Below are positions 12,437-29,500 of a stretch of DNA of 35,497 nucleotides, piece after piece; position 1 is the stretch's first letter; each line of letters starts with the position of its first letter. The position numbers and the translations under genes were made by a program. Origin of the DNA: Candidatus Paceibacter sp. GTDB lineage: Bacteria; Patescibacteriota; Patescibacteriia; DYGC01. The notes under the pieces are model-generated. The model was not told the DNA's origin. It saw only the letters and a list, made by a program, of their open reading frames with translations, and did no database searches. Location of the stretch: positions 1 to 35,497 of the forward strand of contig DYGC01000005.1 of the NCBI GenBank assembly GCA_020724925.1. Direction: 5' to 3'.

Positions 12437-12448
12437 AATCGTGGGGAT

Positions 12449-12540
12449 TGTCATACCGAACGTGGTTTTTGTCATGCGAAACGTGGGTCTTGTCATGCCG
12501 AACGTGTGGCTTGTCATGCCGAACTTGTTTCGGCATCTGG
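12449..12540. repeat. Four-copy tandem repeat, TTGTCATGCCGAACGTGG-type
   Basis: Four successive units start with TTGTCAT near 12449, 12470, 12490 and 12511, with period about 21 and variable ends. The last unit grows into the palindrome that is also found inverted at 13032-13063. It lies just after murG, within the gap 12437-12587. No gene is seen in that gap. Confidence 0.75.
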
Positions 12541-13063
12541 AATAGTGAGAAAAAACTTTAATAAAACCCCAAATATGACGAGAGAGATTATTTTGTATTT
12601 TGGAATTCCTCCCATTTTGAACTTAACTCTTTCAAATATGGATTTTTTGAACGAATAAGATTTAGTTTCCAATCACGATGCCAATTTTTGATTTGAGTTT
12701 CCCTACTAATTGCTTCATTTATGTTTTCATAATGTTCGTAATAAACTAGTTTTTTAATTTGATATTGCGCTGAAAATGATTTTGGATTTTTGTGATTACG
12801 ATGTTCTATGATTCGACGATATAAACTGTTTGTAACTCCAATATAAAAAACCGTATTATTAAAATTAGTCATTATATAAACATAAAAATTATACATTCTT
12901 AAAAATTTAATGTCTGGATTTTTATTTTAGCAAAACAAACATAAAATTAGCATAAATATTTGCTATTTTATCCACAGCTGTAATTGTCGTCGTTCGTGAT
13001 ATTTGTCGGTTAAATCATAAACATTGCTGGCATTCCAGATGCCGAAACAAGTTCGGCATGACA
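12512..13063. mobile_element. Candidate GIY-YIG cassette bounded by 32-bp perfect inverted repeats
   Basis: The 32 bases at 12512-12543 (TGTCATGCCGAACTTGTTTC...) are exactly reverse-complemented at 13032-13063. Each end also folds on itself: ATGCCGAA and TTCGGCAT around a short loop. The enclosed 488 bases hold one GIY-YIG nuclease gene and AT-rich DNA. A further copy with compensating changes (ATCCTGAA/TTCAGGAT) is at 25362-25387. Mobility is inferred, since no target duplication was identified. Confidence 0.5.
12588..12896 (-). CDS. Small GIY-YIG endonuclease (URI/YhbQ type)
   Basis: A 102-residue single-domain nuclease. The family core is visible: YVYIM in place of the GIY strand, then VFYIGVTNSLYRRIIEH with YIG at residues 18-20 and catalytic Arg27, and AISRETQIKNW with the metal-binding Glu66. 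The KNPKSFSAQYQIKKLVYYE segment is typical of the UvrC/URI group. The gene lies alone between 32-bp inverted repeats. It has an extended -10-like TGCTAAAAT (complement of 12924-12932) upstream and no Shine-Dalgarno. Related short GIY-YIG genes are common and often unplaced; processing of the flanking palindromes is a hypothesis. Confidence 0.9.
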   Translation of the reverse strand: MYNFYVYIMTNFNNTVFYIGVTNSLYRRIIEHRNHKNPKSFSAQYQIKKLVYYEHYENINEAISRETQIKNWHRDWKLNLIRSKNPYLKELSSKWEEFQNTK

Positions 13064-23420: not shown

Positions 23421-25037
23421 ATGTTGAAGCAATTGGAACATCACTTTTTTCTCCTGGTGATGGTGGTTTTCGCCATCGTCACCTTCACCTCCAACCCTGT
23501 GTTCGCCGCCCCCGCCCGCAAGGGCGAGGACCCGCGGATCATGGACAAGGCCTTCGCCGAAGCGGCGGGCCTGGTCTGCGGATCCGGGTTCAACAAGACC
23601 CCGGCTGTGGGGAACTACGCCGTAGGAGATTCCTTCTGCATCGGCGAACTCCCCTTGGGAAAGACCATTTCCCAGTCACCGGGTTTCGGCCCGGGAAGCA
23701 AAGGGGAGGAGTCTTTGGTGGATTTCCTGAGCGAAATCCCCGACGATTCGGACTTGATCATCGGCTGCTTCAACGATGAAGTGGCCGTTGTCGGGTGCCA
23801 GAACGCATTGAGCGGCAAGGCCAATGCGTGCAACACCGGCATGGCCGCGGCGCGTTGTCAAAACGCGTTCAACTTGGCCATCCAGGCCAACCCCGGGCTG
23901 TTTGGAAGAACGACCCAGGTGCTGTCCTCGATCAAGGGGGTCCGGCAGGTGGTGTTTTTGGTAAAGAAACGCCCCGTTGCCCCCGCCCCCGCATCCGGCA
24001 GCGAACGCTGCACGGCTGATGAGGTCGCCGCAGCAGCCAAGATCAAATTGGCGGGCGACCACACGGAAGCCTTCAAGGCTCGTGTGGTCGTGATGATCGA
24101 GGGTCAACGCCTCCCCGCCGGCGTCATGGAACGGGTGGTCACCCTGACCATTCCCGGATACGATGAAACCGGCAAAGGTTTCATCGTGAGGCATCCCGAG
24201 CAGGTTAAATCCTGCCGGGTGGGCCTCGTTTCCGCGGGCTCGCTGCCCCCGAATCCGCCCGACGTTCAAGATACCCCCCCGGATCCTCCGGGTGGATATC
24301 CCAAGGAACTGCAGCCCGCCCCCACCCCCGCCCCCGCCGAGCGTGAGACCAACTGCACCGACGGCGTCGACAACGACGACGACGGCAAGATCGACTGCGC
24401 CGACTCCGACTGCCGCGAGCACGCGGCTGTCTGTCAGCCGCAGGACGAGATCTGCGACGACGGCCGGGACAACGACCGCGACGGGTTCACCGACAAGGAC
24501 GATTCGGACTGCCTCAAGCGGCCCGATCCGCCGTCGAAGATCAACCTGGTAGCTTATATCATGGGTTACCAGGAGCGTCCGCCCCGGGAGGAATTCAAGA
24601 ACATGGAGGACCCGGGCCTCCGCTGGAAGGACTATTTCAACTTCCAGATGGGACTTGGTGTCCCGTTCCACGTCGGCAAAGACGTGGTCCTGGTGCCGAG
24701 CTTCGTGGTGGCAACTCGCACCACGCAATACACGGCCGAAGAGACGGTGGGTCCTCTCTTGGGCGACAAGCACGCCTGGGTGGTCGGTGGAGAAATCTCC
24801 CTGCTCAAGAAGGTCGGCAAGACCTTGTGGGCAGGCGTCGAACCCGGGTTTTACTATGGTTCGAGTGGGGTCGATCCCTACTTGAACGGTAAGATCCAGT
24901 ACATGCTCACCCCGCGCGTGGGGGTGGCCGTGGTTTTCGGCGTTCGCGTCGTGAAAAACCACCTCACCGAGGAAGCGGTGTTCATCCCGCGCCTCGGGTT
25001 CCAACTCTCGTTTTCACTGGATCCGATCTTCCAGTGA
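23421..25037 (+). CDS. GC-rich secreted protein with Asp-rich MopE-like modules and beta-rich C-terminus
   Basis: A 538-residue protein of unknown function in a gene much richer in G+C, especially at third positions, than its neighbours. The signal peptide is residues 1-30, ending NPVFAAPA. Residues about 40-190 form a Cys-containing domain. One stretch, LIIGCFNDEVAVVGCQNALS, loosely recalls OmpA-C spacing but cannot be assigned. A Pro-rich linker (PAPTPAPAE) leads to two Asp-rich modules near 310-350 (CTDGVDNDDDGKIDC and ICDDGRDNDRDGFTD), of the putative metal-binding MopE type common in Myxococcota and relatives. Residues about 375-538 alternate Gly and aromatic residues and end LGFQLSFSLDPIFQ, like an outer-membrane beta-barrel. 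That would be odd in a cell with a single membrane. It has its own promoter, structured leader and terminator. Transfer from a GC-rich donor is likely; a chimeric assembly is a less likely alternative. Confidence 0.88.
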   Translation: MLKQLEHHFFLLVMVVFAIVTFTSNPVFAAPARKGEDPRIMDKAFAEAAGLVCGSGFNKTPAVGNYAVGDSFCIGELPLGKTISQSPGFGPGSKGEESLVDFLSEIPDDSDLIIGCFNDEVAVVGCQNALSGKANACNTGMAAARCQNAFNLAIQANPGLFGRTTQVLSSIKGVRQVVFLVKKRPVAPAPASGSERCTADEVAAAAKIKLAGDHTEAFKARVVVMIEGQRLPAGVMERVVTLTIPGYDETGKGFIVRHPEQVKSCRVGLVSAGSLPPNPPDVQDTPPDPPGGYPKELQPAPTPAPAERETNCTDGVDNDDDGKIDCADSDCREHAAVCQPQDEICDDGRDNDRDGFTDKDDSDCLKRPDPPSKINLVAYIMGYQERPPREEFKNMEDPGLRWKDYFNFQMGLGVPFHVGKDVVLVPSFVVATRTTQYTAEETVGPLLGDKHAWVVGGEISLLKKVGKTLWAGVEPGFYYGSSGVDPYLNGKIQYMLTPRVGVAVVFGVRVVKNHLTEEAVFIPRLGFQLSFSLDPIFQ

Positions 25038-25059
25038 ACGAGAGGTGTTCAATATCAAG

Positions 25060-25122
25060 ACATCAAAGGAATTTTAGCTTAAAGAAAGGAGTCAAATCAT
25101 GAGCTAAATTGAACTTTGGTGT
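25060..25122 (+). promoter_or_regulatory. Downstream hairpin displaying a Shine-Dalgarno and a two-codon reading frame
   Basis: ACATCAAAG...AATTTTAGCT (25060-25079) pairs with AGCTAAATT...CTTTGGTGT (25102-25122), with one G-U pair and a bulge. The loop carries AAAGGAG (25085-25091), 7 bases, then ATG-AGC-TAA (25099-25107). The Shine-Dalgarno and spacing copy those of the two GC-rich genes, but only Met-Ser is encoded. The loop shares ATCATGAGC with the hairpin after the second gene. Confidence 0.6.
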
Positions 25123-25134
25123 TTCAAGTCTTTC

Positions 25135-25177
25135 GAGCCCTGTACACAATGGTGTGTACAGGGCTCAGTTTATTTCT
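25135..25177 (+). terminator. Terminator of the first GC-rich gene
   Basis: A 13-bp perfect stem: GAGCCCTGTACAC (25135-25147) pairs with GTGTACAGGGCTC (25154-25166). It is followed by AGTTTATTTCT. The U-run is modest but the stem is very stable. Confidence 0.75.
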
Positions 25178-25261
25178 AGAGCTTTATTGACAAAGCATTT
25201 TTTGAGTGTTAAGACCAAATTATAATTAGTGTATTTTTAAATAATGTTAAGCTCAATTTAC

Positions 25262-25290
25262 TTGACATTATTTTGCCAATATGCTATAAT
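25262..25290 (+). promoter_or_regulatory. Consensus extended -10 promoter of the second GC-rich gene
   Basis: TTGACA (25262-25267), 17 bases ending in TGC, and TATAAT (25285-25290) match the sigma70 consensus at every hexamer position. It predicts a leader of about 340 bases. Confidence 0.93.
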
Positions 25291-25296
25291 ATATCT

Positions 25297-25322
25297 GTTA
25301 GAAAAAGTTGTTTGACAACTGA
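25297..25322 (+). promoter_or_regulatory. Conserved leader with GTTGTTTGACAAC hairpin (copy 2)
   Basis: GTTAGAAAAAGTTG...ACTGA matches the segment at 23269-23293 at nearly every base, at the same distance from the -10. The AGTTGT-TTG-ACAACT hairpin is unchanged. Confidence 0.75.
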
Positions 25323-25361
25323 TTGATTGGGTTATTTTGAGTAGTTATCATGAACAAGTGT

Positions 25362-25387
25362 TAGGTCATCCTGAACTTGTTTCAGGA
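25362..25387. repeat. Single palindromic repeat, GTCATCCTGAACTTGTTTCAG type
   Basis: A palindrome, ATCCTGAA-CTTG-TTTCAGGAT. It matches the ends of the GIY-YIG cassette at 12512 and 13032 except for paired changes (GC-to-CT and GG-to-AG) that keep the stem. It lies inside the leader of the second GC-rich gene. Confidence 0.7.
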
Positions 25388-25417
25388 TCTCTTTAATAAT
25401 CATTATCAATCCATTCC

Positions 25418-25584
25418 CTTGCCACTTTCAACCGCTGATGGACGAGAATTCTTATTTTGAGCAGACTTTCGTTTAATCTTTAAGGATTAACATGAGACAA
25501 GCAATAAAATTTTAGACATAGTAAATCAAATTGATTAAACAATGTTTTGTTCAAAATAGTCAATCAGTGATTGAAAGTGGTAAG
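25418..25584 (+). promoter_or_regulatory. Very long imperfect hairpin in the leader of the second GC-rich gene
   Basis: Three nested stems are visible. 25418-25439 pairs with 25563-25584 (22 bases, core CCACTTTCAA/TTGAAAGTGG, with two G-U pairs and one mismatch). 25453-25463 pairs with 25549-25559 (TATTTTGAGCA/TGTTCAAAATA). 25471-25478 pairs with 25533-25540 (GTTTAATC/GATTAAAC). The sequence differs from the leader hairpin of the first gene, but the position, between the conserved leader and the Shine-Dalgarno hairpin, is the same. Confidence 0.7.
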
Positions 25585-25607
25585 ATATTTTTCTGAAATT
25601 CAAAACC

Positions 25608-25637
25608 GCCCCTTTTGAGGGGCAAAGGAGTAGGATC
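25608..25637 (+). promoter_or_regulatory. GC hairpin abutting a strong Shine-Dalgarno (copy 2)
   Basis: GCCCC-TTTTGA-GGGGC (25608-25623) is followed by AAAGGAG (25624-25630), 7 bases and the ATG at 25638. The stretch GGGGCAAAGGAGTA(G/C)GATC is shared with 23402-23420. Confidence 0.85.
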
Positions 25638-27611
25638 ATGGTACGCTTTTCTTTTGGTCTGTTTTTTTTGATGATGGTGGTCGCCGCCTGCTCGGAGACC
25701 GGCGGGGCACTGACCCCCGAGGAACTCTGCGGCAACGGCGCCCTCGACGAGGGTGAGACCTGCGACGGCACCAACTTCGGCGGCAAGACCTGCGTGACGC
25801 AGGGCTTCGTCGGCGGCACCCTCGCCTGCACCGCCGCCTGCAAGTTCGACACGACGGGGTGCGAAACCCCGCCGGTGGAGGACTGCGACGACAACGTCGA
25901 CAACGACGGCGACGGCGACATCGACTGCGATGACGCCGACTGCGCCGAGGACCCGGCCTGCACGGCCGAGGACTGCGGCAACGGCAGCATCGAGACCGGC
26001 GAGCACTGCGACGGCGAAAACCTGGGCGGCAAGACCTGCCAAACCCAGGGCTTCGCCAGCGGCACGCTGGCCTGCACCACGGCCTGCAAGTTCGACACCA
26101 CCGGGTGTCGGGCGGCCGAGGATTGCGACAACGGCGTCGATGACGACGGCAACGGCGCCATCGACTGTTTCGACGACGCCTGCTTCGGCCACACCGCTTG
26201 CATGGGTGTGGTCTGCGGCGACGGCATCGCCGACGAGGGCGAGGTCTGCGACGACACCGATCTGGGTGGTCGGACCTGCGTATCCCTCGGATACGCGGGG
26301 GGCACGCTGGCCTGCACGGCCAGCTGCCTGCTGAGCACCGCCGGCTGTACCGGCGTTCCCGCGGTTTGCGGCAACGCCGTCTGTGAGACCGGCGAGACCG
26401 AACTTTCCTGCCCCGCGGACTGCGGTGGCGGGGCCGTCTGCGGCAACGGGGTTCTCAACCCCGGTGAGAACTGCGACGGCAGCGCCCTGGGCGGAAACAG
26501 CTGCGTCTCCCTGGGTTACACCAGGGGCACGCTGAGCTGCAACTCCGCCTGCCAATTCAACACGTCCGGCTGCACGCGCTGCGGTAACGGCGTCTGCGAG
26601 AGCGGTGAGGACTACAACTCCTGCCCCGCGGACTGCCAGGCCCCGGTGCTGTGCGGCAACGGCATGTTGAACGGCAGCGAGGTCTGCGACGGCTCGAACC
26701 TGAACGGCCAGACCTGCGCCTCCCTCGGTTTCGTCGGCGGCACCCTGGCCTGCAACGCCAGCTGCACCTTCAACACGGCCAGCTGCACGATGTGCGGCAA
26801 CGGCCTGCTGAACGGGTCCGAGGTCTGCGACGGCTCGAACCTCAACGGCCAGACCTGCGTGTCCCGCGGCTACGCCGGCGGGACCCTGGCCTGCAACTCG
26901 ACCTGCACGGCCTTCGTCGTCACCGGTTGCTCGAGCAGCACCGGCGAGACCATCTGCAACGATGGCCTCGACAACGATGGCGACGGCCGCATCGATTCCC
27001 AGGACCCCGACTGCGGGGTCTTCTCCGGGATCGAGCAGAACTGCACCGACGGCATCGACAACGACAGCGACGGCTACGTCGACTGTTGGGACTACGATTG
27101 CGTCGGGGCCGACGCCTGTCGCCCGGCCTCCCAGGCGGGCGTGAATTCATACTTTGTCTGTCTTCCCGGAGTGAACACAACCGAGTTCGGTTGTGTCTGT
27201 TCCGACGACCTGACCAACTGGTCAGGTCACCATGCCACGGGGCGCGTGTGCATGGGGAATGCAAAACGAAACAACGTGTATGAGATCGCATGGTCTCAGG
27301 GAGGGTGCTCGCCCTCGGAGATCCTGAGATACATGGATCAGGATGGAAACCGGGATTTCTCGGTCCTCCGTTTCATGCACGTCAGCAACGTTTACGGCGC
27401 CGCCGACAACATGGCGCTGATCGTTGGTTGCTCCATCAACCCGTCCACAGGGTTGAGGACGCAGGCCAACATGATGGTCCTGGAGAACCGCTATGACGCG
27501 GCCCAGCAGACCATCCGGAACCAGCTGTTCGGCAGCAGCTGGCTCCAAGTCTCCACCGGCACCGCTGCGGAGGACGCAGTGGATTGGTGGTCGACGTTCT
27601 ACCCCCGGTAG
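25638..27611 (+). CDS. GC-rich Cys-rich repeat lipoprotein with Asp-rich MopE-like modules
   Basis: A 657-residue putative lipoprotein. The lipobox VVAAC (Cys18) follows a short hydrophobic segment, so the mature protein should be lipid-anchored outside the cell. Residues about 28-440 hold six copies of a Cys-rich unit with the pattern CGNG-x-L-x-x-G-E-x-CDG ... GGTLAC ... C. Two shorter CGNxVCExGE...CPADC units are interspersed, plus two Asp-rich modules (DNVDNDGDGDIDC and NGVDDDGNGAIDC). Two further Asp-rich modules at about 437-490 (DNDGDGRID and DNDSDGYVD) lead into a unique C-terminal domain of about 160 residues with Cys and Trp. The Cys-rich units resemble repeats of Myxococcota surface proteins and the Asp-rich ones MopE-type calcium or copper sites; ligand and role are unproven. 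GC content is far above the flanks. Several perfect inverted repeats lie inside the coding sequence near 27003, 27175 and 27207. Confidence 0.9.
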   Translation: MVRFSFGLFFLMMVVAACSETGGALTPEELCGNGALDEGETCDGTNFGGKTCVTQGFVGGTLACTAACKFDTTGCETPPVEDCDDNVDNDGDGDIDCDDADCAEDPACTAEDCGNGSIETGEHCDGENLGGKTCQTQGFASGTLACTTACKFDTTGCRAAEDCDNGVDDDGNGAIDCFDDACFGHTACMGVVCGDGIADEGEVCDDTDLGGRTCVSLGYAGGTLACTASCLLSTAGCTGVPAVCGNAVCETGETELSCPADCGGGAVCGNGVLNPGENCDGSALGGNSCVSLGYTRGTLSCNSACQFNTSGCTRCGNGVCESGEDYNSCPADCQAPVLCGNGMLNGSEVCDGSNLNGQTCASLGFVGGTLACNASCTFNTASCTMCGNGLLNGSEVCDGSNLNGQTCVSRGYAGGTLACNSTCTAFVVTGCSSSTGETICNDGLDNDGDGRIDSQDPDCGVFSGIEQNCTDGIDNDSDGYVDCWDYDCVGADACRPASQAGVNSYFVCLPGVNTTEFGCVCSDDLTNWSGHHATGRVCMGNAKRNNVYEIAWSQGGCSPSEILRYMDQDGNRDFSVLRFMHVSNVYGAADNMALIVGCSINPSTGLRTQANMMVLENRYDAAQQTIRNQLFGSSWLQVSTGTAAEDAVDWWSTFYPR

Positions 27612-29147: not shown

Positions 29148-29245
29148 ATCTTTGTTTGAAAAACAAGGGCTTGCCCGCCGTCGCCCTTACGAGGCGGCGC
29201 TTGTCTTGATGAAAATCAAGAGCGCGGCACAGTAGAATTGTTTTT

Positions 29246-29320
29246 GGGCTTGTAGTCTCAGCTGGTTAGAGCGCCTGCTTTGCAAGCAGGAGGCCGGGGG
29301 TTCGAATCCCCCCAAGTCCA
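29246..29320 (+). tRNA. tRNA-Ala (anticodon TGC) with one extra base in the D-arm
   Basis: Acceptor strands GGGCTTG (29246-29252) and CAAGTCC (29313-29319) include the G3-U70 pair that marks alanine tRNA, with discriminator A29320 and no encoded CCA. The anticodon arm is CCTGC-TTTGCAA-GCAGG with TGC at 29281-29283. The T-arm is GGGGG-TTCGAAT-CCCCC. The 5' side reads TAGTCTCAG where TAGCTCAG is usual, so position 10 or 11 carries one extra base and the D-stem is reduced to three good pairs or has a bulge. Confidence 0.9.
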
Positions 29321-29324
29321 CTCT

Positions 29325-29379
29325 GCGCATTTAGCTCAGTTTCAGCCATAGGCTGATCCGCCTTTGGCGGAGGTTAGAG
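29325..29379 (+). pseudogene. tRNA-Val 5' fragment interrupted by a 30-bp double hairpin
   Basis: GCGCATTTAGCTCAGTT (29325-29341) equals the first 17 bases of the intact tRNA-Val at 29418. It is then split by two perfect hairpins, TCAGCC-ata-GGCTGA (29342-29356) and TCCGCC-ttt-GGCGGA (29357-29371). The tRNA sequence resumes with GGTTAGAG (29372-29379) and is then lost. This looks like a duplicated tRNA with a 30-bp insertion in its D-loop. Confidence 0.7.
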
Positions 29380-29417
29380 GAGTTAAGTTTTGCATAGGAG
29401 GAGAATCGTTTTATTTT

Positions 29418-29491
29418 GCGCATTTAGCTCAGTTGGTTAGAGCGTCTCGTTTACACCGAGAAGGTCAGGGGTTCAACTCCCTTAATGCGCA
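29418..29491 (+). tRNA. tRNA-Val (anticodon TAC)
   Basis: Acceptor strands GCGCATT (29418-29424) and AATGCGC (29484-29490), discriminator A29491, no encoded CCA. The anticodon arm TCTCG-TTTACAC-CGAGA gives TAC for GUA codons. D- and T-arms are canonical. A T-run follows immediately. Confidence 0.96.
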
Positions 29492-29500
29492 CTTTTTTAT

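Follow-up and report, generated by a model that had tools for sequence, protein, structure and literature searches.

Results

The tRNA-Val(TAC) locus and its surroundings

The window, which denotes the whole 35,497-nucleotide stretch of DNA analysed here, is contig C27 of a draft genome of 0.68 Mb, comprising 31 contigs with 80% completeness. Two complete tRNA genes, a broken tRNA fragment and two adjoining hairpins lie in close succession at the locus under study:

29246-29321: tRNA-Ala(TGC), identified by ARAGORN and Rfam
29325-29341, + strand: 5' fragment of tRNA-Val(TAC), positions 1-17 (GCGCATTTAGCTCAGTT), covering the acceptor 5' strand, the D-stem 5' strand and the start of the D-loop; 17/17 bases equal to the intact tRNA at 29418
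29342-29356, + strand: hairpin 1 (TCAGCCATAGGCTGA), TCAGCC-ATA-GGCTGA, with a 6-bp stem and a 3-nt loop, from pattern search and fold
29357-29371, + strand: hairpin 2 (TCCGCCTTTGGCGGA), TCCGCC-TTT-GGCGGA, with a 6-bp stem and a 3-nt loop, from pattern search and fold
29372-29379, + strand: displaced copy of tRNA-Val positions 18-25, the remaining D-arm (GGTTAGAG); 8/8 bases identical
29380-29417, + strand: linker of 38 nt without an ORF, at the place where fuller units in relatives have a GIY-YIG gene
29418-29492, + strand: intact tRNA-Val, anticodon TAC, identified by ARAGORN and Rfam (73.3 bits)

The fragment comprises tRNA-Val positions 1-17 and 18-25, interrupted by a double hairpin of 30 bp in total with no bases lost or duplicated at the junction, and is separated by 38 bp from the intact tRNA-Val(TAC). 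Folding of 29326-29379 gives a D-stem that encloses both hairpins (z = -3.17), and each 15-base hairpin pattern has a single match in the window, where 0.01 would be expected by chance. The tRNA-Val match, the two back-to-back perfect hairpins and the resumed tRNA described in the first-pass annotation are borne out base for base, and the precise insertion of a short palindrome into the D-loop of a tRNA copy that it reported is likewise confirmed. Its further description, an insertion into a structured RNA gene beside an intact copy, holds for the intact neighbour but not for the interrupted gene: the duplicate covers tRNA positions 1-25 only, so that it is a partial copy and not a full gene with an insertion. 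Joining the flanks of the double-hairpin copies restored no full tRNA, because the tRNA copies are partial.

The arm completion represented here by positions 18-25 is also present in other units. The intact tRNA-Val(TAC) at 29418-29492 is best read as a rebuilt copy, and the 38-nt linker before it contains AGGAGG, which may correspond to a ribosome-binding site that it resembles. A group I or II intron within a tRNA was considered and rejected, as Rfam at its gathering threshold reports only tRNA in the window and ten related loci, and an intact tRNA adjoins.

Two other regions of the window were recorded. Upstream of tRNA-Ala(TGC), at 29167-29235, GGGCTTG (the first seven bases of that tRNA) is followed by palindromic CCCGCCGTCGCCCTTACGAGGCGGCG..., and the segment is perhaps another worn unit, the 7-base match being weak. 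Two ORFs rich in Asp/Gly/Cys repeats occupy 23421-27611 and have no Pfam match; their repeat units are GC-rich, whereas the rest of the contig is AT-rich.

Other units in the same genome

Another complete double hairpin occupies C4:7699-7728, within a fragment of tRNA-Val(CAC) covering positions 1-31 upstream of the intact gene, and a decayed one is found at C17:5844 within a tRNA-Pro(CGG) fragment. The loop order of the two full copies in the genome, ATA then TTT, is constant, with the stems swapped. A survey of 30 of the 33 tRNAs identified partial self-copies at nine of them (three Val, one Pro, one Ser, two Glu and two Gln), mostly broken by palindromes; in the Glu, Gln and Ser copies the inserts lie in the T-loop and consist of other palindromes. 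These T-loop inserts, about 20-190 nt in length (L028, L033, L037, L030 and L038), have a common palindromic core, AATCAAG..GAAGCGAGCGAAATGG..CATTTCCGAGCGAACGCAGATT, and form a hairpin family distinct from that of the window.

Several additional observations concern the surroundings of these units. The linker of the Val(CAC) unit on contig C4 ends in ATG TAT TGA immediately 5' of the tRNA (L014, 2069-2077), possibly the first two codons and the stop of a deleted GIY-YIG gene. On contig C17, the tRNA-Pro(CGG) associated with the decayed double hairpin has a 23S_rRNA_IVP gene (PF05635; L007, 1127-1477) downstream, of a family known from rRNA insertions. Contig C4 also has a long hairpin, TTCTTCGTTCGCCTTTGGCGAACTTCG..., common to tRNA-Ile(TAT) and tRNA-Val(CAC) and directly 3' of each (L012, L006), and a masked array of ~32-bp repeats near tRNA-Val(GAC).

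Distribution, target and protein insertions of the double hairpin

The core double-hairpin pattern was detected in 34 of 57 class relatives, with up to 20 copies per genome and low counts for the reversed-pattern control; in GC-rich genomes, part of the pattern matches are due to chance. A broad contig scan yielded at least 80 loci, mostly in Patescibacteria and also in Omnitrophota, Kiritimatiellae, Ignavibacteria and others, at intergenic sites, within genes and within tRNA fragments. The first-pass annotation had staked its reading on the hairpins having further copies in this and related genomes, and many exist, with the same 30-bp architecture recurring at other tRNA loops of this genome and its class and in protein genes. 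At other insertion points, which it suggested inspecting for a common target, the flanks are T-rich 5' and A-rich 3' of the insertion, giving the logo TTT^AAA, and the sites within tRNAs are the D-, anticodon and T-loops. Direct repeats of at least 5 bp accompany 24 of 131 copies, against about 3.3 expected, and the tRNA copies have clean junctions. The flank composition is without a GTAG or CGTC tag, and a REP/BIME element was rejected on that ground.

Within protein genes, the double hairpin is read in a single frame, as SAxGGSAxGG. Comparison with solved homologues shows that cysteinyl-tRNA synthetase and Mfd each carry it as an insertion of exactly 10 residues. Because such exact 10-codon insertions occur in protein genes, the double hairpin moves as a 30-bp unit, and its mobility is well supported. 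In-frame SAxGGSAxGG was also observed in conserved proteins at L163, L172, L137, L181, L151, L190 and others, and the insertion in cysteinyl-tRNA synthetase adjoins a KMSKS-like motif. The Rickettsia palindromic elements are likewise short palindromes lying in frame within conserved protein genes; their sequence differs, and to our knowledge they have neither a tRNA-fragment layout nor a linked nuclease.

Position and direction of the tRNA insertions

Of the 54 copies found in the relatives and in the genome of the window, about 18 are located within tRNA fragments, 14 assigned by a score of at least 13 and the others by eye, and in the broad scan 7 of 83 listed copies do so by score, with a few more by eye. 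The assignment relied on junction-anchored extension, as local alignment, restricted to the top alignment, missed true cases; 345 control positions scored at most 11, with clear matches ranging from 13 to 42. The junctions fall at tRNA positions 12-17, 35 and 54-56, within the D-, anticodon and T-loops or at their edges. A direction rule is followed, with fragments containing the tRNA 5' end placed upstream of the intact tRNA and 3'-end fragments downstream. Most fragments end a few bases beyond the broken arm, and in most nothing outside the mature tRNA ends is included. Plain tandem duplication was rejected, given that nothing outside the tRNA is duplicated and that direction and boundaries are fixed. 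On sequence comparison, the layout of the window, with a hairpin in a partial tRNA, an exact 5' end and an intact tRNA close after, is seen to recur across many tRNAs and species and to be mirrored at T-loops.

Nested arrangements were also encountered in class relatives. At L040, L042 and L044, complete tRNAs with flanking inverted repeats lie inside the D-loop of another, broken tRNA; the outer tRNA at L040 has an additional inverted-repeat insert in its anticodon loop, and one outer tRNA among the nested loci carries the double hairpin in its T-loop.

A GIY-YIG gene between the tRNA copies

At L097, L105 and L188, the gap of ~280 nt between fragment and intact tRNA is filled by a complete GIY-YIG gene of 84 codons. 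The gap ORFs match PF01541 with E-values of 1e-14 to 1e-16, the GIY-YIG motifs are kept in the protein alignment, and in the full units examined this is the only gene between the tRNA copies. The association was assessed in a set of 86 GIY-YIG genes from a protein-based search blind to tRNAs, including three genes chosen for other reasons: 46 adjoin a same-strand tRNA, 39 of these being directly upstream of it and 29 having a 5' fragment of the same tRNA before the ORF, and the other 40 do not adjoin a tRNA. For 37 distinct genes located immediately before a tRNA, the 5' part of the tRNA concerned precedes the gene in 27 cases and a 3' part in 1, and 24 of the fragment matches start at tRNA position 1. 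In 22 of the 27 fragments, a stem of 6 bp or more begins at the break, compared with 20% of shuffled sequences, and in 20 the tRNA sequence continues beyond the stem. The plugs at GIY-YIG units comprise 15+15 double hairpins with unrelated stems (TCAATC/TCAGTC, CCCGGC/TCCGGC) and other palindromes, and L243 presents a mirror-image unit in the order tRNA-Gly, GIY-YIG, hairpin-plugged T-arm.

Nearest-neighbour GIY-YIG proteins are associated with the same tRNA identity in 10 cases against 2.8 by chance (p = 0.0016), as expected for target-bound nucleases. A second query clade displayed a weaker tie to tRNAs, indicating that GIY-YIG nucleases are not all alike in behaviour. Across the 57 genomes, the double hairpin is present in 34 and absent from 15 of those with a GIY-YIG match, and absent from all 8 without one (Fisher p = 0.0003), with a Spearman correlation of 0.54 between the two, calculated on raw genomes with shared ancestry ignored.

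The window genome has five GIY-YIG genes, none of which lies in a tRNA unit of the window layout; two are located ~110 nt downstream of a tRNA, without fragments. A nuclease ORF is absent from the unit in the window, whose 38-nt linker contains no ORF, and present in the fuller units of relatives. One of the five genes lies in the window itself at 12588-12896 on the - strand (PF01541); it has no adjacent tRNA, and tandem 21-bp repeats, CGTGGG..TTGTCATGCCGAA, are found nearby at 12440-12523.

Empty sites and units without the nuclease

Two species of the same genus as G050, G095 and G096, have an identical tRNA-Glu(TTC) without fragment, hairpin or GIY-YIG, and stretches of the upstream flank are common to the G050 locus and one of the two. 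In this comparison of G095 and G096 with G050, the target alleles of the two relatives are uninterrupted. In G097, two units stand in tandem upstream of one tRNA: the first carries GIY-YIG, and the second, immediately after it, has no such gene but the same double hairpin. This second unit, made up of fragment, double hairpin and a linker of 20 nt ahead of the intact tRNA, has the layout seen in the window.

Discussion

Interpretation of the locus

The feature in the window is best read as a nuclease-less unit of a tRNA-rebuilding insertion element, and it is probably the scar side of a very small element that invades tRNA genes. In the proposed mechanism, a GIY-YIG protein would cut an uninterrupted tRNA gene within a loop, and donor-templated repair would bring in the hairpin, the nuclease gene and the missing piece of the tRNA. 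An intact tRNA would thereby be rebuilt, with the old end left behind as a hairpin-plugged fragment. The unit in the window would have lost its nuclease, or never had one, and would rely on a nuclease supplied elsewhere through trans mobilisation; any role of the hairpin in the element is one we infer. The features expected under this cut-and-repair model are all observed: fragments bounded exactly by the tRNA ends, breaks located in loops, a fixed direction, tandem arrays and empty sites. A difficulty is that the rebuilt tRNA would again offer a cleavage target, which requires some restraint on the nuclease. Also weighing against this reading are the absence of a nuclease gene from the unit in the window and of this layout around the five GIY-YIG genes of its genome, the 40 of 86 GIY-YIG genes that do not adjoin a tRNA, and the many double hairpins outside tRNAs, some with short direct repeats, unlike the tRNA copies.

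The first-pass annotation had regarded the feature as the record of an insertion event. The precision of that event stands, but an insertion alone leaves unexplained the directional partial copies, the hairpins at most breaks and the GIY-YIG gene in the gap. Rather than a bystander, the partial tRNA copy seems to belong to the footprint of the element.

Independent mobility of the hairpin combined with survivor bias is the main rival. Here, the double hairpin would be a mobile palindrome for T-rich/A-rich sites, which tRNA loops offer (TTC^GAA, TT^CAA); landing in a lone tRNA would be lethal, survivors would be found in spare, decaying duplicates, and the GIY-YIG gene would be a separate guest near tRNAs. 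Such mobility agrees with the many copies outside tRNAs, including those in frame in proteins, with the target logo TTT^AAA, and with G018 and G049, which have 10 and 14 pattern matches and a single GIY-YIG match each. However, it predicts neither the exact tRNA ends and the upstream/downstream direction rule, nor the hairpins, different in sequence, that stand at the break in most fragments with a GIY-YIG gene, nor fragments identical to the adjoining tRNA without duplicated flanks, and we consider it rather unlikely.

That the hairpin-plugged 5' fragment is a selected RNA leader, controlling for example the processing or folding of the downstream tRNA or guarding against mispairing of the tRNA 5' end, is improbable. 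The stable fold of the fragment, the hairpin geometry that stays constant while the stem sequence varies, and the perfect tRNA match of most fragments would suit such a function, but the units are present or absent inside one genus, most tRNAs of the window genome are without such a fragment, and mirror-image units occur downstream of the tRNA. Highly improbable is an origin as leftover attL/attR half-sites of ordinary integrase-type elements whose middle was lost. The geometry, with a loop breakpoint, a kept arm, a rebuilt tRNA, a displaced end piece and tandem arrays, resembles integration at tRNA attachment sites, and an archaeal case with a putative recombinase has been published (PMC3293823). 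Nevertheless, no integrase gene lies between half-site and rebuilt tRNA in the window linker or in the full units examined, where GIY-YIG is the sole gene between the copies; the spacing, mostly 7-60 bp without an ORF and ~280 bp with one, is tiny for integrase elements, and hairpins stand at most breaks. Chance, replication slippage or an assembly artefact in a single draft genome of 31 contigs and 80% completeness has a practically negligible probability, a chance palindrome being ruled out by the expectation of 0.01 per hairpin and the class-wide occurrence, and an artefact being unlikely because three contigs of the window genome and many independent genomes have the same layout.

Relation to known systems

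Tyrosine-integrase islands at tRNA genes have, as here, a loop-centred target, a rebuilt tRNA, a displaced half-site and tandem arrays; the present units differ in being without an integrase, in their extremely small size and in the hairpin at the junction. The nearest known systems are the double-hairpin elements of Allomyces and sponges, the GIY-YIG insertions in rRNA genes of the CPR and a tRNA-Thr locus of Caldiarchaeum, none of which describes these units.

The repetitive hairpin-forming elements of Allomyces and sponge mitochondria also consist of two adjacent short hairpins; they are dispersed between and inside genes, with stems kept and loops varying, and movement has been suspected (PMC2800124). 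Taking them as a descriptive class, the present element shares with them adjacent perfect hairpins of fixed size and dispersed copies at unrelated sites. It differs in being bacterial, in its fixed 6-3-6 arrangement repeated twice (30 bp), in entering proteins as 10 codons and in its strong tie to tRNA loops and a GIY-YIG gene, and no common origin is claimed.

The rRNA genes of the CPR contain GIY-YIG insertion sequences that are not group I or II introns and have short ORF-less relatives, many neighbours of the insertions lying at the top or base of stem-loops (PMC11270868). The broad bacterial group, the nuclease family and the stem-loop sites in structural RNA genes are shared with the present units. 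In contrast, that paper concerns rRNA only, does not mention tRNA and reports no rebuilt host gene, displaced fragment or hairpin plug, and it judges that GIY-YIG is not spread by homing there (PMC11270868). The Caldiarchaeum tRNA-Thr locus has the same order of 5' tRNA fragment, mobile element (1.8 kb) and intact tRNA, but is archaeal, involves a putative recombinase and intron gain, and affects one tRNA only, with no hairpin at the break (PMC3293823). In the open-access literature, neither GIY-YIG/tRNA units nor the present double hairpin were found to have been described for these bacteria.

Significance

Taken more widely, the units may, as we tentatively propose, represent minimal selfish elements of a class not described before, present in Patescibacteria-like genomes: a putative GIY-YIG protein of ~80 aa that would cut tRNA loops, duplicate the end of its target, rebuild the tRNA and leave the old copy plugged by a hairpin, accompanied by nuclease-less units and a self-moving 30-bp double hairpin that adds 10 in-frame codons to proteins. 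If this is right, elements ranging in length from some tens to some hundreds of bases would routinely invade the essential tRNA genes of a large bacterial group, with host survival maintained by rebuilding of the tRNA. Such invasion would explain many unannotated tRNA fragments and palindromes and would suggest a likely function for the small GIY-YIG genes that abound in these genomes. It would also provide a bacterial counterpart of the mitochondrial double-hairpin elements, and the way in which such hairpins move, a long-standing question, would become directly testable.
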